Assembly (NCBI GenBank): GCA_022787085.1
Contig: JALFVE010000056.1
Span: forward strand, 52,702 to 116,701
DNA length: 64,000 nt
Direction: 5' to 3'
DNA from: Oscillospiraceae bacterium
GTDB lineage: Bacteria; Bacillota; Clostridia; Oscillospirales; Ruminococcaceae
Shown: in pieces, positions 37,247-63,812 of the stretch
Numbering within the stretch: position 1 is the first letter of the stretch
Layout: every line of letters starts with the position of its first letter
Made by a program: the position numbers and the translations under genes
The notes under the pieces: generated by a model
Database searches by the model: none
Told to the model about the DNA's origin: nothing
What the model saw: only the letters and a program-made list of their open reading frames with translations

Positions 37247-38293
37247 ATGTATCATTTACTGATTGTTGACGACAATAAGATTAATCTGTCTGCCGCCAAA
37301 AAAGCTCTTTCAAAAAATTATAAGATCACTGCCGTAACTTCGGGCGCACAGGCATTGCAGTTTCTGCAAAACAACACCTGTGACCTTATCCTTCTGGACA
37401 TAAATATGCCTGAGATGGACGGCTTTGAGGTTATGGAAAGGATACAGAGCAGCCCCGACCGCTCCGATATACCCATAATCTTCCTTACTTCTGACAATGA
37501 CCCGCAAACCGAAAGCCGTTGTCTTGAAGCAGGTGCTATGGATTTCATCTCAAAGCCATTTGTTCAGAATGTCATGCTTTCGAGAATAAGCCGTGTACTT
37601 GAGCTGGAAGCGCTCCGACGGGACCTTGCGGGGCAGCTTGAAGCCCGCACCATGCATATAAAGTATATCCAGGAAATGATGGTCATAGGAATGGCGACAA
37701 TGGTTGAAAGCCGTGACCTTTCCACAGGCGGACATATCAAGCGTACAAGTATGGTCATGAAAATATTTGCGGAAAAGCTGTCAAAGGAGAAGGATTTCCT
37801 GTCAAAAAGCTTTCTTGATATGGTCATTCGTGCCGCTCCAATGCACGATCTGGGAAAAATAGCCGTTGATGACAGAGTTCTTCGCAAGCAGGGCAAGTTC
37901 ACTCCAGAGGAATACGCTGAGATGAAAAATCACTCTGCTGAGGGTTCACGGATAGTCAGACAGATTCTTGAAGGCGTTGAAGAGAATTACTTTGTGGATA
38001 TAGCCTCAAATGTTGCCCACTATCACCACGAAAAATGGGACGGTTCAGGCTATCCCGACGGATTATCGGGCGAAGAAATTCCCATCGAAGCACGAATAAT
38101 GGCGCTTGCAGACGTGTTCGATGCTCTGGTCAGCAAGCGGTGCTACAAGGAAGCATATTCCTATGATAATGCCTTCTCCATAATAGAAAGCTCCATCGGC
38201 ACACATTTTGACCCGCAGCTTGGCAGGATATTTCTGAAATGCCGTCCCGAGCTGGAGGCTTTGTATGATATGGTCAGCATTGAGCAGGAATAG
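37247..38293 (+). CDS. response regulator with HD-GYP domain (predicted c-di-GMP phosphodiesterase)
   Basis: Receiver DLILLDINMPEMDG; APMHDLGKIAVDD, HHEKWDGSGYPDGLSGEEIP HD-GYP signature. Confidence 0.93.
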   Translation: MYHLLIVDDNKINLSAAKKALSKNYKITAVTSGAQALQFLQNNTCDLILLDINMPEMDGFEVMERIQSSPDRSDIPIIFLTSDNDPQTESRCLEAGAMDFISKPFVQNVMLSRISRVLELEALRRDLAGQLEARTMHIKYIQEMMVIGMATMVESRDLSTGGHIKRTSMVMKIFAEKLSKEKDFLSKSFLDMVIRAAPMHDLGKIAVDDRVLRKQGKFTPEEYAEMKNHSAEGSRIVRQILEGVEENYFVDIASNVAHYHHEKWDGSGYPDGLSGEEIPIEARIMALADVFDALVSKRCYKEAYSYDNAFSIIESSIGTHFDPQLGRIFLKCRPELEALYDMVSIEQE

Positions 38294-38331
38294 TTTGGAT
38301 ATTGCATTTTACAGAATCGGAGACATAGATT

Positions 38332-38400
38332 ATGATACTGACAGGAAAGATAATAAGTCCTATGGTTTCGTTCGTTATTTATGATGAAGAAACAAAAACA
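38332..38400 (+). pseudogene. 5' fragment of a gene paralogous to 53981..54403
   Basis: MILTGKIISPMVSFVIYDEET versus MILIGKKLSPTVSFILYDEET; homology stops about 85 nt in, next to a terminator. Confidence 0.65.
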
Positions 38401-38434
38401 TCTGAAGCATATCCCCTGCCAATAATTTCTTTTC

Positions 38435-38475
38435 GGCTGCATCTTGCTTTAAAAACTGCAAGATGCAGCCTTTTT
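38435..38475 (+). terminator. Rho-independent terminator
   Basis: GGCTGCATCTTGC-TTTAAAAACT-GCAAGATGCAGCC-TTTTT. Confidence 0.88.
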
Positions 38476-38551
38476 GCATTGATAATATGCTGTTTATCGA
38501 GAATAAAATTAGGTTGAAATGCACAATAAAACTTTATATTTCCAAAGAATA

Positions 38552-38580
38552 TTGACACGATATACAAAATGTGGTATAAT
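38552..38580 (+). promoter_or_regulatory. promoter of the EAL-domain gene
   Basis: TTGACA-17-TATAAT. Confidence 0.75.
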
Positions 38581-38634
38581 AAAATATATATTTATGATTT
38601 ATAATATCATTTGCAGTATATTAAGGTGATAATA

Positions 38635-41304
38635 ATGAAAGAAAAAATGACTATTGGCATCTGCATGACTAAGATCCACGATATTTCACGAAGTGCTTTT
38701 CTTGATATGCTTTTTAATTATGCCGAAAAAAAGTCTATAAAGCTTATCATCTACAGCAGCTTTATTGATTTTTACGATAGCAGCACCTATGCAGAAGGCG
38801 CAAGATATGTTTATGATTTTATGCGTTGTGATAAGCTTGACGCTGTCATTATTATGAAAGAAACATTCTTCAATGACAGCATCGTAAACAGTATTATTGA
38901 AAATGCAAAATCAGCAGGTGTTCCTGTTCTTACCGTAAAAGGCAAGGCTGAGGGATGTTTTTCAATAACCGATGATTATTCCGAGGCATATAAAGAAGTT
39001 ATCAGACACGTTATAACTCATCACGGTGCAAGAAATACATTTTATATTGCAGGCAGAAAAGATAACGATCCGACATCGGACCTGCGCCTTGGCTGCTATA
39101 AGGACGTTCTTGCTGAAAACGGAATTGAATTTTCCGAGGAAAATGTTGCTTACGGCGAATACTGGGAAGAACCGGCAAAAGCTATCGTTGATCGTCTTGT
39201 TGAAAGCAGAGGCATTCCTGAGGCTATATTATGCGCAAATGATACTATGGCAATGGCTGTTTGCGAACAGCTCTCATGCTACGGATATAAGGTGCCCGAA
39301 GACGTTATTGTAACAGGTTTTGACGGACTTCCCATGTCAGATGCTCATTCCCCTGCAATTACCACCTGCAAGGAGAATGTATCTGCTCTTGCAAAGCGTA
39401 CTATAGATATGGCTGAAGAAATGATAAACGGTGCAAAGCCATACTGTGACACTGTTAATTTTATGGTGCATATTACAGAATCCTGCGGATGCAGCGGAAA
39501 TTCAAACATATCTGACATAGATGTTTCTACAAAATTGTATAAGAAACTGTATGATATGATATCTCATGAGGATCATTCTTTTTCATGGATCGACCATATT
39601 ATGGAGCATATCTCCATTACAGATCTGCTTGGAATAATATCTCATCATATTCTGCCCGATTCTGTTGTGTGTATCCGCAACGACTTCCTTGCATCTATAA
39701 GCGGACTTCCGGATGAGGCTCCTAACGGCGCTGATTATATGACTCAGGTTACTTTCAGCGAAAAAAACAGTGACCATTATGTGTTCAGGTATTATGATGA
39801 TGAAACAATCAGATCGGTGATAAGAGAAAATAATAGACAAACAGGAATGTATATCGTCACACCAATTTATGTTGAAGATATCTCCTGCGGATTTTATGTT
39901 GCTTTTACAAATGAAATAATTAATTATGCCCATAAGATGCGGCGTATTTCAAGCAGCATAAACATTGCTTTCCATGAGGCTGTAAACCGTTACAAGCAGC
40001 AGACAATGAAGCAGAGAATTGAAAATGCTGCGTATATAAATCCCATTACTGCTCTTCCTAATCTCAGAGGCTGCTGCCGATGGTTCAATGATTTTGCTTC
40101 CCGGCAGAGCAATCATAATAAAACTCTGGCTATTTCCGTTTACGGTCTGCCGCAGTATAAGTATATCTATGAAAATTACGGCATTGCTGATATTGAAAAT
40201 GCTATAAAGCATGTCAGCGAAGCGCTCAGACAGGCGAATACGACCGATTGCTTTGTAGGTCAGATCACAGAAGATGAATTTGTTATTGTGGATTATTTTG
40301 ACGACGCTGACATGGTTACTGAAAGGATAAATCATGCTACGTCCACTTTCTTCCCGTTGATCGACGCATTTAATGTCAGCAGCGGAAAGGAATATTTCGT
40401 CGAGGTCAACTGCGGCTGTACGGTGGTAAATCCGGGATGGCAGGGTTCGCTTGCAAGTTTTATCAAGCTTGCAAGCGGCGAAATGTACATAAACCGTCTG
40501 AAGAATGGAGTAAGTCCTGTTGTCAAGGAGAATAAGAGTAAGCACAGCTTTGAAATATTCAGTCTGCTGATAAAGAAAAATCTTTTCAGATATTGCTTCC
40601 AGCCTATTGTTGATGTGCATACGGGAGATATATTTGCCTATGAGGCGCTTATGCGCACCGATTCAAATATCAATATGTCGCCATTTGATGTTATCAGCAC
40701 AGCTGCCGAGTATAATATGCTTTATGATATTGAGCATGCAACAATGTTTAATGTTATCAGTCATTATGCACAAAACCGTGAGCATTTTGAGGGTAAAAAG
40801 CTTTTTATCAACTCGATCCCAGGTTATACACTCAATGATGGGGATAATCTTATCATCACAGAAAAATACGGTGATCTGATGGATAATTTCGTCTTTGAGA
40901 TAACAGAGCAGAACTCCGTTTCCGATGATGAGCTGAGAAAAATAAAATCCCTGGGAGGAACGGACGGAAATAATCAGATAGCAATTGATGATTATGGCAC
41001 AGGTCATTCCAACATTGTGAATCTGATGCGGTATTCCCCGCAGATAATAAAAATTGACAGATTTCTTATTTCAGGCGTTGACAAAGATGTTAACAAGCAG
41101 ATGTTTATTAAAAGCACCATTGAATTTGCCCGCATAAACAACATTAAAGTGCTGGCGGAGGGCGTTGAAACATCTGAAGAGCTTAAAACGGTAGTCTCTT
41201 TCGGTGTGGATTATGTTCAGGGATATTATATGGGAAAGCCTGTGTTTGAGCCTGTAAAGGCTATACCCGATGATATACGCCGCGAAATTCTGAGTGTTTC
41301 TTGA
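38635..41304 (+). CDS. LacI-type ligand-binding domain + degenerate GGDEF + EAL protein (predicted c-di-GMP phosphodiesterase)
   Basis: Periplasmic-binding-like N-terminus without HTH (AILCANDTMAMAVCEQL...VIVTGFDGLPMSDAHSPAITT); ITEDEF at the GGDEF position; EALMR, FEITEQ, IDDYGTGHSN, KIDR, AEGVET, QGYYMGKP intact. Confidence 0.88.
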   Translation: MKEKMTIGICMTKIHDISRSAFLDMLFNYAEKKSIKLIIYSSFIDFYDSSTYAEGARYVYDFMRCDKLDAVIIMKETFFNDSIVNSIIENAKSAGVPVLTVKGKAEGCFSITDDYSEAYKEVIRHVITHHGARNTFYIAGRKDNDPTSDLRLGCYKDVLAENGIEFSEENVAYGEYWEEPAKAIVDRLVESRGIPEAILCANDTMAMAVCEQLSCYGYKVPEDVIVTGFDGLPMSDAHSPAITTCKENVSALAKRTIDMAEEMINGAKPYCDTVNFMVHITESCGCSGNSNISDIDVSTKLYKKLYDMISHEDHSFSWIDHIMEHISITDLLGIISHHILPDSVVCIRNDFLASISGLPDEAPNGADYMTQVTFSEKNSDHYVFRYYDDETIRSVIRENNRQTGMYIVTPIYVEDISCGFYVAFTNEIINYAHKMRRISSSINIAFHEAVNRYKQQTMKQRIENAAYINPITALPNLRGCCRWFNDFASRQSNHNKTLAISVYGLPQYKYIYENYGIADIENAIKHVSEALRQANTTDCFVGQITEDEFVIVDYFDDADMVTERINHATSTFFPLIDAFNVSSGKEYFVEVNCGCTVVNPGWQGSLASFIKLASGEMYINRLKNGVSPVVKENKSKHSFEIFSLLIKKNLFRYCFQPIVDVHTGDIFAYEALMRTDSNINMSPFDVISTAAEYNMLYDIEHATMFNVISHYAQNREHFEGKKLFINSIPGYTLNDGDNLIITEKYGDLMDNFVFEITEQNSVSDDELRKIKSLGGTDGNNQIAIDDYGTGHSNIVNLMRYSPQIIKIDRFLISGVDKDVNKQMFIKSTIEFARINNIKVLAEGVETSEELKTVVSFGVDYVQGYYMGKPVFEPVKAIPDDIRREILSVS

Positions 41305-41327
41305 AATATCGTTAGGAGGCAGCTATT

Positions 41328-43649
41328 GTGATTAATAACAGATTAACGATCGGACTTATGACAAGTCACCTTGATGACAATTTTGCCAAGGCGGTCTGCA
41401 AAGGAGTTATCTCCTGTGCCGAGGATAAGAATGTAAATGTAATTGTTCTTCCCGGAAGATATATTGACGCAAAATATGAAGATGTTGAGCGCACCGACTT
41501 TGAATATCAGTACAATACTCTTTTTCATTATGTCAAGATGAACGGAATTGATGTGGTCATCTCTCTCATAGGAGTTATCGGAGGCTTTTTGTCAGAGGAA
41601 AGAAAAAAGAAATTTCTTGATAGCTTTAAGGGTATTCCCATAATAACAGTTGCCTGCAATGTTGAAGGATACCATTCCATTGTATTTGATAATACAAGCG
41701 GTCTGCGTGAAGAGATCGAGCATATCATTGATGTTCACAAGAGAAAAAGAATTGGTTTTGTAAGCGGTCCTGAAACTAACAACGATGCTAACGAGCGACT
41801 TGGAGTATATCTGGATGTACTCAGATCCCGAGGCTTTGAAATAGATGATAAGCTTATTGCCCACGGAGATTTTTCACCATATTGCAAAGAACCTGTCGAA
41901 AAGCTCATTGACGATAATCCCGATATTGACGCTATCGTTTTTGCCAATGACTGCATGGCTCAGGCAGGATATACCGTTATAAAGGAAAAAGGTCTGGAAA
42001 TCGGCACTGATATATCCGTTGCAGCTTTTGACGATTCGCCTGTGGCAACGCAGCTAAGCCCAATGCTGACTTCCGTTCATGCCGATGCCGAAACTCTCGG
42101 TTATGAATCTGCGATCGCAGCTATAGATTATATAAACAAGGGTTCCGTCAGAGATGATAAGGTTCCCTCTTATATGACCCGAAGAGCTTCCTGTGGCTGT
42201 AATTCGGTTTCCGAGATCAAGGGATCTTCAATTTATATGTTCAAAAACAGCTTCTGCCGTACAGTAAATGAAACGGCTTCTGTTCTTTCTTCATATCTTA
42301 TGGAGGGCAGAGAAAACAGCAATGAGGCTCTTGATATAAAATCGTCATTTTTTAACTTTGTTGAGTTCATGCTCAAAAATATCTCGGAAGATCCCGATGA
42401 AAAAACATATTCGGAGATCATCAGATTATTTAACGATTTCCTCTGTGATGAGAATATGGAGTTTATTGATACTGACCGCCTTTGCAGCGTGATAATGTAT
42501 CTCAGGGAGCGTATTCAGACAGAGGTATCCAATATAAGTGCGATCAGCGGATTGTTCCTTAATATTCTGCGTTCTATTACACAGGCGGTCGCTAATTACG
42601 GTGCAAGAAAAATGAGCCAGCTGGAATTCCTATCATGGCAGTCAAATGCAATAGTTAGAGATATGCTCTACTACAACACCTATAATGATTATGCTTACGG
42701 TTCGGTAATAGACAAGCTGCTGAGAATGGACGGTATTTACAGCAGCTACCTGTATGTATTCCCCGACAAGGTAAGCTACGACGGAAAATCTGAGTGGCAG
42801 CCTCCTGAAAAGGTTCTGCTCAAATCCTACCATAACGGAGATAAAATGATTGTTCTCAAGCCTGAAGAGCAGGAGTTAAACATTGAGGATATATTCACAA
42901 ACAGATTTATCCCTACGGGAAGACGGTTTACTATGGTTATGTCAACAGTGTCGCTTTATTTAGATCATTTCGGTTTGTTCCTGTGTGAACTTGATGACGA
43001 ACATTTTTACTACATAAATCCTCTTGTGGCGCAGCTCGGCGGTTCTATGAAATTTATCAAAATACTTCAGGACAAGGATAATATGCAGGAAGAGCTGAAA
43101 AAGAATCTGGAGCAGATACGTTATCAGAACGAACAGCTTGACAATATTGCGAAAATGGATGAGCTGACATTTGTTTATAACCGCAGAGGCTTCTTTGCAA
43201 AAGCTAATACAATGATAAGTGCGTCCCAGAATGAAGGAAAAAGAGCTGTAATTATTTTTGCTGATCTGAATTTCCTGAAGCTGATAAACGATCGCTTCAG
43301 TCATGAAGACGGTGACTTTGCTATAAAAAATGCCGCTGTTATTCTGACGGATTCATTCGGCAGCAGTGATATCATCGGACGTATCGGCGGAGATGAATTT
43401 TCAGTTCTCGCTCTTGTGGATGAAGGCTGCACAGACGATGTCTGCGCAGAGATCAGACAGCGTATTAAGGATACTACCGACCGTTTCAACCGTTCCCACA
43501 CGAAGCCCTATAATGTCCAGATGAGCATTGGTCTTTATGAATTTATATGCGGCAAGAATGTCGATCTCAGCGAGATAATGTCTAAAGCAGATACTCTGCT
43601 CTATGACGACAAGAAAAATAAAAAGAATATTCTTCGTGATAATATCTGA
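41328..43649 (+). CDS. LacI-type ligand-binding domain + GGDEF protein (predicted diguanylate cyclase)
   Basis: AIVFANDCMAQAGYTV...VAAFDDSPVATQLSPMLTSV; C-terminal FADLNFLKLINDRFSHEDGDFAI...IIGRIGGDEFSVL intact GGDEF. Confidence 0.88.
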   Translation: MINNRLTIGLMTSHLDDNFAKAVCKGVISCAEDKNVNVIVLPGRYIDAKYEDVERTDFEYQYNTLFHYVKMNGIDVVISLIGVIGGFLSEERKKKFLDSFKGIPIITVACNVEGYHSIVFDNTSGLREEIEHIIDVHKRKRIGFVSGPETNNDANERLGVYLDVLRSRGFEIDDKLIAHGDFSPYCKEPVEKLIDDNPDIDAIVFANDCMAQAGYTVIKEKGLEIGTDISVAAFDDSPVATQLSPMLTSVHADAETLGYESAIAAIDYINKGSVRDDKVPSYMTRRASCGCNSVSEIKGSSIYMFKNSFCRTVNETASVLSSYLMEGRENSNEALDIKSSFFNFVEFMLKNISEDPDEKTYSEIIRLFNDFLCDENMEFIDTDRLCSVIMYLRERIQTEVSNISAISGLFLNILRSITQAVANYGARKMSQLEFLSWQSNAIVRDMLYYNTYNDYAYGSVIDKLLRMDGIYSSYLYVFPDKVSYDGKSEWQPPEKVLLKSYHNGDKMIVLKPEEQELNIEDIFTNRFIPTGRRFTMVMSTVSLYLDHFGLFLCELDDEHFYYINPLVAQLGGSMKFIKILQDKDNMQEELKKNLEQIRYQNEQLDNIAKMDELTFVYNRRGFFAKANTMISASQNEGKRAVIIFADLNFLKLINDRFSHEDGDFAIKNAAVILTDSFGSSDIIGRIGGDEFSVLALVDEGCTDDVCAEIRQRIKDTTDRFNRSHTKPYNVQMSIGLYEFICGKNVDLSEIMSKADTLLYDDKKNKKNILRDNI

Positions 43650-49271: not shown

Positions 49272-52200
49272 TTACTTTTGATTGGATTTCCTTGAATACA
49301 ATGCCAGTCCGATAAAGGCTGCTGAAAGGAACAGTCCTGTGGGGATAAGCACTCTTGCAGCTGTGCTCCTTGAGACTTCATCCTCATCTGCATTCATACC
49401 TGCTCCTGCGGCAACATCCTCGCCCGAAGCGGAAGAATGTTTCTTGGTTGTATAGTAAACAGGGTAATCAAAAGGTTCTGTTGTGGTAACAGTCGTCCAT
49501 ACAGATGTCACATGAGATGTAACAGTATTTTCGGAAGCAGAGGTTACAGTATCAGAAGAAATAATTGTGGAATTTTCGGAATTGCCTGTTGTTGTTTCCT
49601 CGGGAACGGTTGTAACACTGCCTTCGGATACTGTTCCGGTTGTTTCTTCGGGGACGGTTGTTTCAGACGCTGAGGTCGTCGTTTCGTCCGAAACAGTAGT
49701 TGTATCCTCGGATATGCTCTCGGAAGAAACGGTCGTCTCCTCAGGAATAACATCATCTCTCATGATTATAACGCCGTTATCGGTCTCTGCACCGGTTGAT
49801 ACGATTCCGTTATTGTTAACGGTAAACTGTATCTCCTCTGCAATCTTATATCCGACAGGGGCTGTTTTCTCAACAAGCACATAACTTCCCGCAGGAAGGA
49901 TAATTGTTTTTTCGAAAGTACCCGATGTCCAGCTTGTTATGAGTGTACGGTTGGAATCAGCAATGCTGTACATCTCAAGCATTGCTCCGGGAAGCTCGTT
50001 TGTACCGTTTATGGTCCTCTTGGATATCTTTACTTCAAACGAATCGGGTGAATAAGTGTTTGTAACAGCTATGTTCTTATTAACGGGTAAATTTGCAGGC
50101 GGAGCAGTTATTTCGCTTCTGCTGTCAAGTACAAAAGTATTATCGCTGCTGCCGTTAACACTCATTATGTAGCTGCCGCTGATATTCTCCTCCACAAGAT
50201 ATTTCACAGGAGTTCTGACAAGAGTATCATCGCTGCCTCGTGAATAGGTATAAATCGGAAGCTCATCAAAGGTGTAGGTCTGATCGGCTGCAGAATAGCT
50301 TGCGGCATTGATTACCTCGTTGGTGCTCAGGTTTTTGATAGAAATAGATCCGATGTCAAGAGTCGGACGTGATGCTGAATCTCCGCCCACCCAGTTCTTG
50401 GTGATAACGACAGTTCCTATTTCTTTCTCGGGAGCTGTAAATGTATTTGTGAGATTCAGCTCGGTATCGGAACCGAGTGCAGCAGATGGAGTATAAACTG
50501 CGCCGTCGGCAGAATATTCAGCTGTATAGCCGTCAATATATTTCTCCGCAAGCTTCCACTTGAAGTATTTATGCTCACTTTCAGAGCCTGTTCTGTCCTC
50601 AACGATAAGGTCTTCAACGGTATAGGTCCATTCGCCGCTGCTGTTTACGTCAGGCTCAATGACCACTGTTTTTGTATCGACTTTTCCGTTTTCACCCTGA
50701 GTGGTATCAATAGCTCCATTTCTTCCAAGAAGCTGATACTTTTCAAGAACTAATGTAATGCTTGAGGGAGCCGGAATAGAATAACCGTTGTTATCCCAGG
50801 TCTTTGTTCCGCTGATTTTGATCTTGGTGTAACCTGTGTTGGACGTGGAGCTCTGTTCAGATCTGTACACGCTTTCATCAAGAACAGCTCGGGTATCATA
50901 GCTGCCTCTTCCGCTGATCTCCACAGAGTTTCCGAACATATTTCCGATCTGATCATCGGAATACTGTCCATTAAGAGGTATCTGCTTTACTTTAACCTTG
51001 TAGGTAATTACGCAGGCTGTCTTATCGGGGATAGTGAATGTCAGCTTTCTGCTTACGGGATCATAGCCATCAAAGCTGCACTGTCCCACGGGAGTAATTG
51101 CAACGGAACCGTCGACATAGGTAAGCCTTGAGCCCAGTGTATCCGTAACAGTCATGGTGTTTCCGCCGTTGAGCATTGCCTTTTCGGAGTTTAATTCGAT
51201 TTTGTACTCGGCATACTGACCTGTGCTATCGGATGGACTGCCTATTACTGTTTTGGTAATAACATTTCCGGATGTGATATTATACTGTTTTGTTGCGTCG
51301 CCCTGTGACATTTTGCCTGAAATTTTGGTTACTGCCGTGTTTTTGATCTCATGGGTCTGTCCGTCGTCAAAATATTCATTATATTTATCGGCAGTAATAT
51401 CGGTAATGATGCCGATATTCAGAAGGTTATACTCATAACCGTTAGTTTTGGCGTTAAGAGCGGCTGCAAGTTCAGCATCAAGTGTGATGGTCACTGTAAG
51501 CGTATTTCCTACAATAACTGCGGGAACTTCAGTATTATAAATGGTATTGCTGCTATTGAAAGGCGAATCTCCGCCCCAGCTGTCGGTAACACAGAGCTTT
51601 ACTGTATCTCCGACAAACTCAAAATCCGTATTGCTAAGGGTATCCGTAACGGTTATTTCCTGTCCTGCAGAAAGATCAACATCGCTTGCCTTCTGGAAAG
51701 CTACAGACCAGCAAATCGGATAGTTCATAACATCTGTTATTCCCAGATTCCTTTTCTGATCTTCATTAAGCGTTAAGGCTCTTTTTGTAGTTTTCAGGCT
51801 TAAAAAGTCCCTTTTGGCGGTATCGCTGCCTTTTTTAGCATTTCCTTCCTCAGTGACGACTTTAACTTCTGCGCTGTTGATTAATTTCTGAGCATCGGCG
51901 ATATCAGGTTCGGCAACATATACCTTGTATGTGAGCTTGACTGTTTTTCTTCTGTAACTGCCGGGGTTACTGCAAGTGATATTATATTCGTTATAATTGC
52001 TCCAATCATTGGCTCTGACTGCGGTCCAGTCACTTGAAGAAGCGGGCACACCGTCAACTGTAACGCTGATAATGTCAAGTCCGACGCCTGAAATACTATC
52101 GGGCTTGCCGGACATTGTCCAGTCATTATCAATTGTCATTTTGTCGTAAATTGTGATACTTCCGATGGGCGTATCGGGAACGCTGAACTCCACTGACCAG

Positions 52201-53614
52201 ACAAGCTCCCGATCTGCGTCTGTGACATTTTCGGAAACTAGCCGCTTGTCCACTGTAACATCACTGACAGCGGCAGGTATTACTGCGTCAGCCTCCTTGG
52301 AATCCTTCAATTCAGAATGATCCTTGGGGTATGTCTCGACTTTGTTTTTAGCTGTAATAGAAGTCTCGCTGTTTCTGTCAGCTTCACTTACTGTAGTGTA
52401 GTAAGTAAAAATATATTTTCCATCGGTAAAGGCGGAAACGGGGATATCCATGGTAAAACCGTCTCCCGATGCAGAAGCATATACGGGCAGAGAATCAATC
52501 GTGCCGCAGTGACTTACGGGAATATCGTTTACTGTAATTTTTCCGTTGCTGAGAGTACCTGCAGAAACAGTAACGGTCCACAGTATCTTGCCTGTATCAT
52601 TGTCATATGTTCCAGTTTTCACGGATGAAGGAGCAACAAACACAGCATTTGCTTCTGAATATGCAGGCTCAGTCTCATCCGAATCGGCAGTTACCTTGTT
52701 TTTGTCCGAGATCGTAAATTCGCCGGAAGGAAGCTTCATTCTGCATTTTATCTGATATACGGGATAATACTCACCTTCTACGGGGAGGGAATCTACAGAG
52801 GCGGTATATTCGTTTCCGCTTTGGGTAAAGCTTAATCCCGTGATAGTGCTTTCAAGCAGCACAAGCTCGCAGTCCTCGGGGACTGTATCGGTTATAGTTA
52901 CATTTGTAAGGGTGTTGCCGTCATAAACAGCGGAACCGGATACTTTTATTATGTAATCCTGATAATAGATGCCATCCTCGTAACCGATGCTGCCAACCGT
53001 GTCCTTGGATACAAATATCCTTGAGTCCTCACGGTAAATATTGACAGGGATATTATCGTCAAAGATTTTCAGGATCTTATTATCTCCATCGTTTCCAAGC
53101 CCTGTGATATCAAGGATACCGTCAATGCTTGCGCTTCCCTGCTTGCCTGTCTCACCGATATCCTCCTTGAATGCGATATAGAGCTTATTATCTTTTATGT
53201 AGTGGCAGGCGATCTGTCCGTCATCGTCGACCTTCGGAAAGGTTTTGTCTGCAAAATCAATTGCGGGACACTGCTCTGCCAGATCTATCACAATACATCT
53301 TCTGGTTTTATTGCCATCTGTATCTTCGGAATAGGATTTGTCACTGTAACTCCAGCTGATGCTGAATTTGATCCTGTCCCCGTCCTTCAGTTCGGCTTCG
53401 GCAATAGGAGTAACGTCATTTACCTTGACATCTAACGCATTTATCGTAAATCCCTTGTGATCCTCTGAGCTGTAACGCACCTCTTCATAATTATAATCAT
53501 CATCCGGCAGCTCTATCGCCTCAATATCCCGAACCGATTGGGGCATTATCATAAAAGCCGTCAGAACAGCAAGCAGGAACGCCCCTAATCGTGCGTACCA
53601 TTTTTTTGTTTCAT
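49272..53614 (-). CDS. large surface protein with Cna-B/SpaA-like domains, Thr-rich stalk and C-terminal TM; signal peptide out of frame
   Basis: ORF 49272..53552; GTKTWDNNGYSIPAPSSITLVLEKY and VVITKNWVGGD Cna-B-like, SKRTINGTNELPGAMLEMYSI SpaA-like; upstream in-frame KKWYARLGAFLLAVLTAFMIMPQS lacks an ATG unless one nt is added to the A7 run at 53601-53607. Confidence 0.8.
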
Positions 53615-55566: not shown

Positions 55567-58500
55567 TCAGGAGCCCTCATAGCCTGATATTTCGCAATCG
55601 GTCATTGTCAGATGCTCATTGTCTGCAAAAACGATATGCGGATCGGCTGCTGCAACATATACAATTCCGCTGCATTTGTTAATTGCGACCTCTGCCCTTT
55701 TATCGCTGCTTCCAACAGCAAAGCATTTCTTGCCCTCTATTCTGATATCGCAGGAGGAGTCTGAAATATTAACCTCTCCCCCGCCCTTTTCATATCCTAT
55801 GCCGTGAATGTTTTTTCCGTTATATTTCATAACGATATTGCAGTCCGAAATGTTAATAATGCCATTTGCCGCATCAACCGAATAAATTCCCGAGATATTG
55901 TCACCTTCAGCCTTTACTTTGAACCCGGAATCGATGACAGAGGCTTCTATGCCTGTTCCGAAGCTGCCCATTGCTATTCCATCGGCACACAGAAGCCTGA
56001 ATGACGCCGATGAACCGGTGATGTTCATTATCGGCTTGGAATAAAAGCAGCCTATTCCCAGAACCTTCTTTCCGCTGATATCGACAATTAATTCCTCTGT
56101 TCTGATGTCGATCTTTGATTGGCTGCGGTTATATCCTCCGCCTATGGCAACGCTCTTCTCGGCGGCTGTTCTGATCTCCAGACGATTTTTAAGATAAATG
56201 CCGATATTTCCGTAGGAATGACTGAGATCGCAGCCGATGGCAAATTTCTGATCCGACTGAGGAACCACCGAGAGCCTGCCGCTGCCTACTATTTTCAGCT
56301 CGGCGTTTTCGGGAACAAGGATCGAGCCCGAAATAAATACCTCTCCCGATATATTCAGAGTAAGCTTGCTGTTCCTGCCTATGATAATGCTTGAATCGCC
56401 ATGCTCATTTTTCAGCTCAACGTCGCAAAGATTCAGCGTACATTCAATATTATCCTTGATAATGACCATCAGATCAGATGTATAGCCCACGCTTCCTGTT
56501 AATGTATAATAGCTGCCGCTGATGAATATTTCTGTGAAATTATCAAGATCCAGAGATTTTATATCATTCTTGGTTTCATCGCAGGTGAAATAGGTCTTCG
56601 GAGCATATGTATTCTTGCTCTGAGAATAAAATCTGACGATTTCCTCCGCTATTTCGGGTTCAATGGAATTTACCAGATTATAGGAGGGCCTTGCGGTATA
56701 ATATCCCTGTATCAGATCAACTCCCATTGATATTACCGTAGAAAGCTCCTCCACTGTTTCTACGCCCTCGGCAAGAACATTGAAATTATTATCATGTGCA
56801 TATTCGATAATATTTCTTGTAAAGTGCTGCTTGCGCTTGTCCGACTGAATATTCATTATTAAGCTGCGGTCAATTTTTACGCAATGAGGCATAAAATTCA
56901 GAAGATTGCTGATATTTGAATAGCCGGTTCCGTAATCGTCAATGGCGATCTTGAATTTCATCTTTCGGCTTCTGTCAATTATCGCCTTGAGCTGTTCGGA
57001 ATTTGCCTCGGTCTGCTCGGTAAATTCTATTACCACATTTTCCATGACGCTTTTGAATTTAGAATACAGCTCGTCAAAATCCTCATCGGAAAGAAAGCAC
57101 GAGGGAATACTGTTAACAAACAGAAGCCTGCAGCCAAATTCTTCACGATGCTCATACAGAAAGCCGAAGGTATTGAGCATAGTCAGACGCTCCACATCTC
57201 CCAGCCTTCCAAGAGCGGAAGCGTGTTTCAGGATCGCTACGGGCGATATCCTTGCTTCCCCGCTGGACCTCATCAGAGCTTCATATGCAAATATTTCCCC
57301 TGTATGAGCATCAATGATCGGCTGGAACTGATATTGCAGCAAATTATCATTGAGCATTTTTGCAACATACCTGCGCTCGTTGGGATCGTATTCCTCTGCG
57401 CCCGAAGGCAAATTCATCAGACGATTTTTTTGGTGATTATCCTTTGTCATATTACGCTGATATGCCGCGTCATAGGGCAGTTTGTCCAGCAGCTCTTTTG
57501 AATCGAAAACCGCAGTCACCCTGGAATAGAAGATATGAATTCCATATCCGTTTGCGCTTGTGCTGTTATAGGAATCAAGATTTCTTTCAAGCTTTACAGG
57601 CACCTCGTCTGCGGGATTGTCATTATCAAGGATACCCGCAATAATAAACTCGTCGCCGCTGACTCTTACGCAGATATCTCCGTCGCCTGCACAGTTATTC
57701 AGGATAACAGCCATTTTCTGAAGGACCTTGTCGCCCTCCTTATAGCCGTATGCTTTATTTATGCCGTTCAGATTATCCACGTCCACGGAGATTATTCTGA
57801 GAAGCTTTCCCTTGCTCCTGTTAAATTCCTCTGTCATTATCCGCTTGAAGCCGCGCATATTCAGAAGACCTGTCAGCTGATCTCGTATCTGCGCATTTGT
57901 GGTATCGTCACAATATATCGTATGTCTGCGCTGCTTCTCCAGCGCTCTGGTCACATATCTGAGCCATTTTACAAATACGCTGTCGTACATAGCTCCGCTG
58001 TCCCCGAAGGAAAGGACGATATATCCGAAGTTGATCTTATCAAAATGAAGAGGTGTGAATATAAATGAAGAAGGCTTGTCCCTTTTTTCAAAAATAAAAG
58101 GAAGCATTTCGCTGCGGCTGAATTTCCGCTCGGTATCTACAGAGCCCTGACCCTCTATCCTCATATACGGAAGCTCCATTACATCGGAATAATCGGTAAT
58201 ATCGGCGCTTATATGCATAATATTCTCGTTCAGACACATCCAGAAGCTCTTTAAGCCGCTGATATAGAAGGTGTACCAGTCCAGCTTCCAGAGAAATTCG
58301 GAAAAATCGGGTGCGCTGAACAGCTCATCCTGCATATAGTTATAGCATGAATCAAAGCCGTTGTCTCCATAGGGAAGGAGATCCCGCCTTGCCGCCTCCG
58401 ACAGCATATGAAGGTCAATATGTCCGCAGCCGCAGCTGATTCCCCGAACCAACTCGGAAGAGCTGCTCTCGGAAGGAACATATTCCGAGTGATTTATCAT

Positions 58501-59292
58501 GGAAATTAGCTTGCGGGCAGCGTTTATTGCTATCCCCGAGGGATCTCTTTTTACAGAGGTGATATTTATCTTGTCGGTGGTATAAGGCTCACCGAAACAG
58601 CTGCCTGTAACGATTATATCCTCGGGAACAGAAATATTTCTGCGGTAAAGCTCGCCGATCACAGACACCGCCGCATAATCGCTGCAGCAGATCACAGCCT
58701 GTGGAAGCCCCTTTTCGATAAGGCTGTCGGCAATAGCGCCGTAATCCCCGAAAAGCTCTCTGCCGTAATAAACCATTCCCTCGGGTATAGATATTCCATG
58801 CCTTTCTATTGCGGATAAAAAGCTTTTTCTCAGGCAGTCGAAATACTCAGAATTTTCATATCCGCCCACGAACGCAGCTGTTTTAACTCCATGGACCTCC
58901 GCCAGATGGCTCACTGCAATTTCTGCACATTCATCGTAATCGAAAACGGTATTGTTATTATGAGGCTCGTATTCGTCTATGTACACCACAGGCTTTCCGA
59001 TCCTTTTGAGCTTATCCTCCACCGACTTACGAATATCCTCGCTGTTAAGCCCCTTCAGAAATGCAATTACTCCGTCAACGCTGTCGTAATTCACGATCTC
59101 AAAAAGCTTGTTTTCCATGGATATGTCCTCATGCCTTGTGAGGAGGGTGGAAAAAACCGCAACATCCATATCTGCAGCAAAAAGCTCCTTCTGGATATAA
59201 TTCAGAGCTCCGCAAATAAAGCTTCTGTCCGCCTCGTCTACGAGAACAGCAATCAAAGGTCTGCGCTTGTCCAAATAAATCTCTCCGCTCAT
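55567..59292 (-). CDS. LacI-type ligand-binding domain + GGDEF + EAL + C-terminal beta-solenoid-like repeats
   Basis: AVICCSDYAAVSVIGEL...IIVTGSCFGEPYTTDKINITSV; VRVSGDEFIIAG; YEALMR, IEFTEQ, IDDYGTGYSN, KIDR, AEGVET, QGYYTARP; then about seven ~28-aa repeats; ATG 59292 chosen, TTG at 59340 is an alternative. Confidence 0.88.
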   Translation of the reverse strand: MSGEIYLDKRRPLIAVLVDEADRSFICGALNYIQKELFAADMDVAVFSTLLTRHEDISMENKLFEIVNYDSVDGVIAFLKGLNSEDIRKSVEDKLKRIGKPVVYIDEYEPHNNNTVFDYDECAEIAVSHLAEVHGVKTAAFVGGYENSEYFDCLRKSFLSAIERHGISIPEGMVYYGRELFGDYGAIADSLIEKGLPQAVICCSDYAAVSVIGELYRRNISVPEDIIVTGSCFGEPYTTDKINITSVKRDPSGIAINAARKLISMINHSEYVPSESSSSELVRGISCGCGHIDLHMLSEAARRDLLPYGDNGFDSCYNYMQDELFSAPDFSEFLWKLDWYTFYISGLKSFWMCLNENIMHISADITDYSDVMELPYMRIEGQGSVDTERKFSRSEMLPFIFEKRDKPSSFIFTPLHFDKINFGYIVLSFGDSGAMYDSVFVKWLRYVTRALEKQRRHTIYCDDTTNAQIRDQLTGLLNMRGFKRIMTEEFNRSKGKLLRIISVDVDNLNGINKAYGYKEGDKVLQKMAVILNNCAGDGDICVRVSGDEFIIAGILDNDNPADEVPVKLERNLDSYNSTSANGYGIHIFYSRVTAVFDSKELLDKLPYDAAYQRNMTKDNHQKNRLMNLPSGAEEYDPNERRYVAKMLNDNLLQYQFQPIIDAHTGEIFAYEALMRSSGEARISPVAILKHASALGRLGDVERLTMLNTFGFLYEHREEFGCRLLFVNSIPSCFLSDEDFDELYSKFKSVMENVVIEFTEQTEANSEQLKAIIDRSRKMKFKIAIDDYGTGYSNISNLLNFMPHCVKIDRSLIMNIQSDKRKQHFTRNIIEYAHDNNFNVLAEGVETVEELSTVISMGVDLIQGYYTARPSYNLVNSIEPEIAEEIVRFYSQSKNTYAPKTYFTCDETKNDIKSLDLDNFTEIFISGSYYTLTGSVGYTSDLMVIIKDNIECTLNLCDVELKNEHGDSSIIIGRNSKLTLNISGEVFISGSILVPENAELKIVGSGRLSVVPQSDQKFAIGCDLSHSYGNIGIYLKNRLEIRTAAEKSVAIGGGYNRSQSKIDIRTEELIVDISGKKVLGIGCFYSKPIMNITGSSASFRLLCADGIAMGSFGTGIEASVIDSGFKVKAEGDNISGIYSVDAANGIINISDCNIVMKYNGKNIHGIGYEKGGGEVNISDSSCDIRIEGKKCFAVGSSDKRAEVAINKCSGIVYVAAADPHIVFADNEHLTMTDCEISGYEGS

Positions 59293-60950: not shown

Positions 60951-60979
60951 TTGACATTACGGGAAATATGTAATAAAAT
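60951..60979 (+). promoter_or_regulatory. promoter of the GH3 gene
   Basis: TTGACA-17-TAAAAT. Confidence 0.7.
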
Positions 60980-61007
60980 AAAAAAAAATACGCTGCGGAG
61001 GTTCATT

Positions 61008-63812
61008 ATGGATGATATCAGACAAAAGCTCCCCTATCTTGACGAATCCCTCTCATACAAGGAAAGAGTGGACGACCTTCTTTCAAGGCTTACTCTTGAC
61101 GAGAAGATAAATATGCTTTCCACCCATCATCACAGTATTGAACGGCTTGGAATCAAGGAATGGTTTATCGGCACAGAATGTGCCCGAGGCTATGTCACAC
61201 ATGACAACGACCGTCCATCCACTGTTTTTCCTCAGCCAATCGGAATGGCATCAATGTTTGATGATGAGCTTATGGAAAAGATCGGTGAAATCGCAGGAAA
61301 TGAATTTCGTGCATATTACAATCGTGATGGAAAGGGCGGACTAATGATCTGGGGTCCCACGGTGGACATGGAGCGTGACCCCCGCTGGGGCAGGACCGAA
61401 GAGGCATACGGCGAGGATCCCTTCCTCACAGGAAAAATGACTGCGGCATATACAAGAGGCCTCAGAGGCGATGATCCAAAGGTAGTGAAAACCATTCCCA
61501 CTCTCAAGCATTTCTGCGCAAACAACAATGAAAAAAACAGGGGCAGCTGCTCCGCAAATATTGATCCCCGAACCAAGCACGAATATTATTATGCCGCCTT
61601 CAAGCCCGCCGTAACAAAGGGCGGGGCATATTCGATGATGGCTGCATATAACGAGCTTTCGGGCGTTCCCGCCATCTGCAATCCCGAGCTTCAGACTATT
61701 GTTAAGGACAAGTGGGGACTGGGATTCGTGGTTTCCGACGGAGGAGATTTTTCCCAGAATGTTACATATCACAGGTTCTGCTCTTCTCATGCGGAATCGC
61801 TTGCGTTATGCCTTAAAGCGGGCTGCGATGTAATGACAGATTGTGACGAGCTTGTTTCCGAGGCGGCATACAAGGCTTTAAAGGAAGGGCTTATCACCGA
61901 AGCTGACATCGAGAGGGCTGTGGGAAATTCTCTGGAGGGACGCTTCCGTCTGGGTGAATTTGACAGCTCCACTCCCTTTGATAATATCCCGCCCGAGATA
62001 ATAAATTGCGAAAGCTCGAAAAAGGTAAATCTCAGAGCAGCAATGGAAGGCATTACACTGCTTAAAAACAGCGGTATTCTCCCTCTGTCAAAGGAAAAAA
62101 TCAATAAGCTGCTTATCTGCGGTCCTCTCGCAGATGAAAATCTCCGTGACTGGTACACAGGCTATTCGGATTATGAATACTCCGTTCTAGACGGGTTCAG
62201 GCGCTCCCTTGGAGAGGACAAAATTCTTTATGACAACGGCTTTGACAGAATTGCGATTAAATCCGTATCAAACGGAAAATATCTCACCATTGACGAAAAC
62301 GGCTTTGCGGTCTGCTCGGCAGATAGTGTGGGCAAAAGAGAGATTTTTGAATACCGAGATCTGGATTTTGATGTTCTGAACATCTATTCATGCGCCGAAA
62401 GAAAATATCTGACATTTACAAACGAGGTTAAGGCGGAGACCGAAGCTGTTTTTCAATGGTTCACAACTGAAACCATTCACAGGCGTGATTATGAAGGCTT
62501 TGTGACCTTTGAATCCCGCACCCATGATGAAGTGATAACAGACGAAAACGGAAGGCTTATCTGCCGCCCAAGATCGGGAATAACTAAAAACAAGCTTTTT
62601 GAAATTGAGATAATTTCCAAAGGTTCCGACAGGATAGCAAAGCTTGCTGCTCAGGCAGACGCTTCAATTGTATGTGTTGGAAATCATCCCATGCAGGTCG
62701 CAAGGGAATGTTATGACAGACCCGATATCACTCTACCAAAGCCACAGCAGGAGCTGACAGAGGCATCATATTCCGCAAATCCGAACACTGTTATGCTGAT
62801 TGTTTCAAGCTATCCCTTTTCTGTAAACCGTGAAAATGAGCTTCTGCCTGCCATTGTTTACACATCTCATGCAGGTCCCGAGCTTGGAAATGCCGTTTCC
62901 GCCTGCCTGTTGGGCGAATATAATCCCGCTGGAAGAACGCCCATGACATGGTACAGTTCTGTTCGTGAGCTGCCCGATATCATGGATTATGACATTATCA
63001 AAAACGATATGACATATCGTTATTACCGAGGAAAGCCGCTTTATCCCTTCGGTTACGGACTCTCCTACTCAAGCTTTGCATATTCGGACTTCACGGTCTA
63101 TGAAGCTCCCGACAAAAATTATCTGACTGCCGAGCTTGATGTAAAAAACATATCCGATATTGACGGAGACGAGGTTGTCCAGATCTATTTCCGTTTTGAA
63201 AACAAACGGATAAAGCGCCCGATAAAGCAGCTTTGCGGATTCAGAAGACAAAGCATCAAAGCGGGCTCCACTGCTAACATAATAATTGAAATTGACCGTT
63301 CTGAGCTTGAATTCTGGGACGTATCCCGAGAAAAATTCTGCCTTGAAACGGGAGACTACACCTTTATGGCAGGCGCATCAAGCGAGGATATCAGAGATAC
63401 CGCAGCGCTGTTCATTGAGGGTGAGACTGTTCCTCCGAGAGATGTCAGAAAAGCTGTCAAGGCAATAAATTTCGATGATAAGGGAACGGTAAAAATGCTT
63501 TGGTCAAAAGGACTTTCCGAGCATTTTATTCAAAGCTCGGGCTATACACCCTATCTGATTTATCAAAGCTGCAATACCGATGGGGCGAAAATGCTTGAGA
63601 TAAAGGCATCTGCATGGGAAAAGCCCGAAAACGTCAAGGTGTATGCCGACACGACAGACAGCGCTCCGATTGCTGAAATTGCTGTCCCTCCAACCGATGG
63701 AATTGACGATTTCAGGACTATTACCGTTTCTGTGGAAAAGCTTTCCTCGGTGCATGACCTGATTTTTGAGCTTGGCGGCAGCTCTGCTTTGCTGTCATTC
63801 AGATTGTTCTGA
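61008..63812 (+). CDS. GH3-family beta-glycosidase with probable beta-trefoil (fascin-like) insertion
   Basis: GPTVDMERDPRWGRTEEAYGEDPFLTGKMTAAYTRGLRG; GFVVSDGGDF nucleophile region; FGYGLSYSSF; start ATG 61008 after GGAGG. Confidence 0.92.
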   Translation: MDDIRQKLPYLDESLSYKERVDDLLSRLTLDEKINMLSTHHHSIERLGIKEWFIGTECARGYVTHDNDRPSTVFPQPIGMASMFDDELMEKIGEIAGNEFRAYYNRDGKGGLMIWGPTVDMERDPRWGRTEEAYGEDPFLTGKMTAAYTRGLRGDDPKVVKTIPTLKHFCANNNEKNRGSCSANIDPRTKHEYYYAAFKPAVTKGGAYSMMAAYNELSGVPAICNPELQTIVKDKWGLGFVVSDGGDFSQNVTYHRFCSSHAESLALCLKAGCDVMTDCDELVSEAAYKALKEGLITEADIERAVGNSLEGRFRLGEFDSSTPFDNIPPEIINCESSKKVNLRAAMEGITLLKNSGILPLSKEKINKLLICGPLADENLRDWYTGYSDYEYSVLDGFRRSLGEDKILYDNGFDRIAIKSVSNGKYLTIDENGFAVCSADSVGKREIFEYRDLDFDVLNIYSCAERKYLTFTNEVKAETEAVFQWFTTETIHRRDYEGFVTFESRTHDEVITDENGRLICRPRSGITKNKLFEIEIISKGSDRIAKLAAQADASIVCVGNHPMQVARECYDRPDITLPKPQQELTEASYSANPNTVMLIVSSYPFSVNRENELLPAIVYTSHAGPELGNAVSACLLGEYNPAGRTPMTWYSSVRELPDIMDYDIIKNDMTYRYYRGKPLYPFGYGLSYSSFAYSDFTVYEAPDKNYLTAELDVKNISDIDGDEVVQIYFRFENKRIKRPIKQLCGFRRQSIKAGSTANIIIEIDRSELEFWDVSREKFCLETGDYTFMAGASSEDIRDTAALFIEGETVPPRDVRKAVKAINFDDKGTVKMLWSKGLSEHFIQSSGYTPYLIYQSCNTDGAKMLEIKASAWEKPENVKVYADTTDSAPIAEIAVPPTDGIDDFRTITVSVEKLSSVHDLIFELGGSSALLSFRLF

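Follow-up and report, generated by a model that had tools for sequence, protein, structure and literature searches.

A beta-solenoid fused behind the EAL domain of a putative c-di-GMP phosphodiesterase in Oscillospiraceae

Within a 64,000-nucleotide stretch of an Oscillospiraceae contig (the window), a minus-strand reading frame with its ATG at 59292 and its stop at 55567 encodes a protein in which a LacI-like sensor, a GGDEF domain and an EAL domain precede a beta-solenoid (Table 1); the orthologue L021 starts at the same MSGE. An earlier note, made from the sequence alone, had read a LacI-type sensor, an SGDEF-type GGDEF domain and an intact EAL domain here, and Pfam recovers all three: the sensor matches Peripla_BP_3 over residues 129-286 (E 3e-19) and Peripla_BP_1 over residues 14-226, and the EAL domain scores 171 bits against a cut-off of 31.3 (E 2.9e-50), with every motif intact (EAL, FVN, IEFTE, DDYGTGYSN, KID, AEGVE and QGYY). 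The protein does not classify as a LacI-type transcription factor: Pfam finds no helix-turn-helix, and the chain begins with the ligand-binding fold. The GGDEF alignment covers positions 3-113 of the 161-position model, its first two-thirds, and in the sequence LN takes the place of the FK that usually precedes the conserved N in the first nucleotide-binding motif. The protein lacks a signal peptide and transmembrane helices, as had been claimed, its highest 19-residue hydropathy window reaching 1.24, and behind the EAL domain no Pfam or NCBIfam model matches, the last 347 residues being wholly unassigned.

Table 1. Genes and domains in the window, with the basis for each assignment
Feature	Position	Strand	Basis or remark
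EAL-solenoid gene, 1241 aa: LacI-like sensor, GGDEF, EAL, beta-solenoid	55567..59292	-	full-length orthologues L021-L025
LacI/periplasmic-binding-protein-like sensor, about residues 8-290, without helix-turn-helix or signal peptide	58422..59271	-	Pfam
GGDEF domain, residues 470-578, motif SGDEF	57559..57885	-	Pfam
EAL phosphodiesterase domain, residues 645-869	56686..57360	-	Pfam; active-site counts across 69 EALs that carry a solenoid
Conserved linker, residues 881-921, helix EEIVR and Tyr-containing stretch	56530..56652	-	AlphaFold2, conservation, fixed EAL spacing
Beta-solenoid, residues 922-1241, about 11 rungs of 28-31 residues	55570..56529	-	AlphaFold2 and conservation
Response regulator with HD domain (HD-GYP-like)	37247-38293	+	
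Sister protein, same EAL clade: LacI-like, GGDEF, EAL, solenoid absent	38611..41304	+	EAL tree
LacI-like-GGDEF	41328-43649	+	about 24 bases past the sister gene
1426-aa surface protein	49272-53552	-	
GH3 glycosidase	60951-63812	+	

Elsewhere in the window, three consecutive plus-strand genes of c-di-GMP type occupy positions 37247-43649. In the surface protein, SpaA and Cna_B domains occur alongside a region rich in Thr and Ser, and a membrane segment lies at the C-terminus. The GH3 glycosidase has a Fn3-like and a CBM6-like end, as well as an insertion in its C-terminal GH3 domain that weakly resembles fascin/FRG1 (beta-trefoil type), and it adjoins a MATE gene that is divergent from the EAL-solenoid gene. 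The EAL-solenoid gene of L024 is likewise flanked by MATE and GH3 homologues; beyond these two, found at three loci each including the window, we detected no conserved neighbouring gene or operon partner. The window genome encodes about 24 GGDEF and 13 EAL domains with a single PilZ match, many c-di-GMP enzymes and few recognised receptors, and one of the 13 EAL proteins bears the solenoid.

The solenoid comprises about 320 residues behind a conserved 40-residue linker; the glycine-rich repeats of about 28 residues listed in the earlier note are all present, although the domain is slightly shorter than the roughly 330 residues given there. In the single sequence the periodicity stands only slightly above chance: of lags 10-59, lag 28 gives the strongest signal (z = 3.3), and the best lag in shuffled sequences has a 95% limit of 3.1. 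Among 68 homologues, the glycine of the [A/G]IG motif is invariant at residues 1020, 1051, 1081 and 1109 and is kept in 60-67 of the 68 at 1137, 1166 and 1194, with spacings of 31, 30, 28, 28, 29 and 28. Because these invariant or near-invariant glycines recur at intervals of 28-31 residues, the repeat is not due to chance. AlphaFold2 models of the last 361 residues, run with five orthologues, contain strands throughout (mean pLDDT 87.6, pTM 0.88), most rungs of the all-beta model lying at pLDDT 93-98, so that the disorder once considered for this region is not what is predicted. Confidence is low over the first 30-40 modelled residues, which comprise the helix and linker, although Y901 within them is conserved in 67 of 68 homologues. 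A joint model of EAL domain and solenoid, run with six sequences, had a poor EAL domain and a pTM of 0.61, too low to place the two domains relative to each other.

Foldseek returned no significant PDB match to the solenoid (best E 0.009, TM-scores below 0.4), the leading hits being mainly right-handed beta-helix proteins of the pectin-lyase-like class. Nothing significant emerged among viral models in the fold search either (E 0.015 or worse), and a sequence-profile search of the PDB gave no solenoid match. Strictly conserved positions in the 68 homologues are mostly structural glycines and core aliphatics, mainly Gly, Ile and Val, and surface residues differ among relatives. We rejected an enzymatic, pectate-lyase-like solenoid on finding no conserved acidic or basic set in these homologues. 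Conserved polar positions include D1022 (47/68) and N1055 (37/68), which lie in adjacent loops. The window solenoid contains 10 cysteines and no tryptophan in 316 residues, a composition that suits a cytosolic location.

We collected near-complete solenoids from related genomes together with their upstream frames and, after removing duplicates, obtained 71 distinct examples. An EAL domain directly precedes all 71, with a 10-residue gap in 68 of them, and the solenoid itself has a nearly fixed length in most members, forming a 360-column unit. The same uninterrupted fusion recurs in dozens of independent assemblies, which rejects mis-assembly or a fusion artefact, and none of the near-complete solenoids proved to be the separate secreted protein that the earlier note had named as a possible counterexample. 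The metal-binding and catalytic residues of the EAL domain (E of EAL, N, E, DD, K, E and Q) are kept in 68-69 of 69 solenoid-bearing members at each site, the exceptions being one K and one D that replace the two glutamates of IEFTE. N-termini, by comparison, vary freely. The window protein and those of L026, L093, L098 and L102 combine LacI-like and GGDEF domains; L097 has a LacI-like domain without detectable GGDEF; L095, L096 and L105 have two apparent transmembrane helices and a weak GGDEF match. Forms of about 860 residues have no recognised N-terminal domain, GGDEF included, and those of about 710 residues have only a short N-terminus. The constant unit is therefore EAL plus solenoid. 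In the membrane-anchored forms the solenoid, standing behind the EAL domain, would also be cytosolic.

Several candidate solenoids outside this arrangement were set aside. Three that seemed to stand alone (L158, L159 and L161) lack an EAL domain owing to contig ends, and a 192-residue EAL-less fragment inside a long contig (L160:1777-2352, minus strand) is probably the remnant of a decayed gene; the remaining EAL-less candidates are partial matches, two of which carry signal peptides. One EAL-solenoid protein (L163:1619-3808, minus strand) matches the profile in two stretches, columns 1-248 and 195-358, an overlap that suggests duplication of a rung pair.

Solenoids occur in 19 of 20 sampled genomes of the genus (18 by the first search, with G011 added by the profile) and at up to five copies per genome (G172). 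Across the family, 67 of 299 genomes in 22 of 122 genera match the profile, G099 solely through a 149-column segment. At the level of the class, matches fall to 20 of 389 genomes, four of them solely via short segments of about 155-175 columns, and at the level of the phylum to 3 of 398, all from the same class.

Part of the solenoid also has relatives outside cells. Large proteins match its columns 45-219, among them the 2477-aa protein of L112 (columns 45-206); this protein and the 1870-aa protein of L111 begin with a signal peptide, as judged by eye, and Pfam assigns the repeats of L112 and L115 to Beta_helix_3. No cysteine occurs in the aligned stretches of the L086 and L087 segments. Among 19 EAL-linked members tested against Pfam, none matched Beta_helix_3 (PF18889) and one matched Cthe_2159 (PF14262) below the cut-off (E 0.08). 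From this distant kinship, the solenoid was probably derived from extracellular beta-helix repeats; we infer that the secreted repeats came first and the cytosolic domain later. The link to extracellular beta-helices drawn in the earlier note thus stands as ancestry, whereas the carbohydrate binding associated with them found no support in our tests: the domain lacks tryptophan and its strictly conserved positions are mostly structural.

A tree built from 107 EAL domains clusters the 69 solenoid-bearing rows, with two label changes in total against a mean of 31 after shuffling, although most of these rows had been collected by their solenoid, deep clade branches are weakly supported (82-86) and long branches meet at the base. 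The simplest reading, short of proof, is that the solenoid joined the EAL lineage by one gain, with one loss. The solenoid-free sister protein pairs with the solenoid-bearing L098 of another genus (support 100/99), a placement that fits loss of its solenoid, and its existence indicates that the enzyme part can exist alone. One genome thus holds a natural pair with and without the solenoid. Sequence identities of the EAL domain correlate with those of the solenoid (Spearman 0.63; none of 500 permutations exceeded 0.16), the mark of two domains that diverged together. Between the window protein and L021, the one pair used for rates because other orthologues are near synonymous saturation, dN/dS values are 0.13/1.04 for the solenoid, 0.089/0.84 for the LacI-like domain and 0.058/0.81 for the EAL domain. 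The solenoid, at a ratio of about 0.12, is under purifying selection; its rate resembles that of the sensor and is twice that of the EAL domain. A part whose target differs between species would be expected to change at such a sensor-like rate; alternatively, the faster change could reflect weak constraint.

Our leading explanation, offered tentatively and drawn from sampling within one bacterial class, is that the solenoid serves as a recognition or docking arm by which a cytosolic c-di-GMP phosphodiesterase is positioned or gated; the partner would most likely be an envelope protein or assembly. Judged by its motifs, the EAL domain should hydrolyse c-di-GMP, while the LacI-like domain would presumably bind a small ligand, which may be a sugar, and influence the EAL domain through the GGDEF domain. 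The beta-solenoid, gained perhaps once from secreted beta-helix repeats and set at a constant spacing behind the EAL domain, would recognise its intracellular partner, so that c-di-GMP might be removed locally, or solely when the partner is bound. A docking arm is favoured by the exclusive, evenly spaced EAL link, the intact catalytic motifs, the free variation of the N-termini, the joint divergence of EAL domain and solenoid, the sensor-like rate and the lack of a catalytic-looking invariant polar set in the solenoid; the scarcity of conserved neighbouring genes counts against it. A broader proposal, which we advance with more reserve, is that a once-secreted beta-helix has been domesticated as a fixed-geometry regulatory arm dedicated to c-di-GMP phosphodiesterases, in a lineage-specific class (up to five paralogues in one genome) whose members read or dock onto an intracellular polymer or envelope assembly; this might constitute a previously undescribed mode of c-di-GMP control.

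Alternatively, the solenoid might give the protein a second sensor, binding carbohydrates inside the cell and reporting sugars or polysaccharide fragments to the phosphodiesterase, which we regard as doubtful. The signal peptides of the large proteins with related segments, the sugar-binding type of the N-terminal domain, the nearby GH3 gene, the similar rates of solenoid and sensor, the polar pair D1022 and N1055 and the very weak Cthe_2159 match would all suit such a sensor, but that match is insignificant, the top fold matches are to generic beta-helices and miss significance, tryptophan is absent and members without a LacI-like domain also carry the solenoid. Self-assembly, in which end-to-end or lateral stacking of solenoids would cluster the phosphodiesterase or control EAL dimerisation, is in our view unlikely, even though two papers on bactofilins provide a precedent for cytosolic beta-helix domains that polymerise (PMC4372379, PMC12364344). 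The nearly fixed solenoid length and the fixed EAL link would agree with it. EAL activity is commonly dependent on dimerisation, a further point in its favour. However, neither Pfam nor the top 50 PDB folds include a bactofilin match, the bactofilin core is about one-third as long as the window solenoid, and the solenoid surface varies between relatives where assembly faces would be expected to be conserved.

We consider it improbable, and less likely than either glycan binding or self-assembly, that the solenoid acts as a passive tail, stabilising the protein but having no specific partner. Its strict conservation is mainly structural, the sister gene has lost it and a single EAL protein of the 13 in the genome has it, all as a passive tail would allow; but it is a complete domain at fixed spacing, kept over about 20 of the 122 sampled family genera and in other families of the class, with a dN/dS of about 0.12, and 320 residues of dead weight should often have been truncated or lost.

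The EAL-solenoid protein probably presents an extracellular repeat moved into a cytosolic signalling enzyme, with a fold known mainly from outside cells. Enzymes of c-di-GMP metabolism are usually diversified by N-terminal sensors, whereas here a large C-terminal module is what stays constant. If the solenoid places or gates the enzyme, it would be a concrete example of c-di-GMP being controlled locally in Bacillota of the gut, on which our literature searches turned up little although the window genome is rich in GGDEF and EAL domains. Among open-licence papers on EAL or GGDEF proteins with a beta-helix, beta-solenoid or pectin lyase domain and on c-di-GMP enzymes in Ruminococcus, none appears from its title and abstract to describe this architecture, and, as far as Pfam, NCBIfam, the PDB and open-licence papers reach, the architecture is probably undescribed.

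Among known systems, the composite GGDEF-EAL phosphodiesterases PRK10060 and DosP share the domain order, the catalytic EAL motifs and a GGDEF domain that is likely regulatory, but their models stop at or just past the EAL domain, where the window protein adds its 320-residue solenoid; identity with the named GGDEF-EAL enzymes of NCBIfam was rejected, as scores fell far under the equivalog cut-offs. LacI-like (Peripla_BP_3)-GGDEF proteins, such as the one encoded in the window, have the same N-terminal sugar-type sensor free of a helix-turn-helix and are cytosolic, but lack both the EAL domain and the solenoid. Pectin-lyase-like right-handed beta-helices (GH28 and the PfbA adhesin) make up the class of the leading, insignificant PDB matches, and we identified no catalytic residues in the solenoid. 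The Cthe_2159 family, a beta-helix family with extracellular carbohydrate-binding members, resembles the solenoid in being a beta-helix, and bactofilins (PF04519) in being a beta-helix that operates in the cytosol, although their length and domain context differ. Secreted Bacillota beta-helix proteins (PF18889, L112) share a homologous stretch of about 160 residues and repeated [A/G]IGGG turns, but they are 1000-2500 residues long and have no EAL domain, whereas the EAL-linked solenoid is cytosolic and of nearly fixed length. The enzyme itself is a member of the known EAL family; the novelty lies in its architecture.
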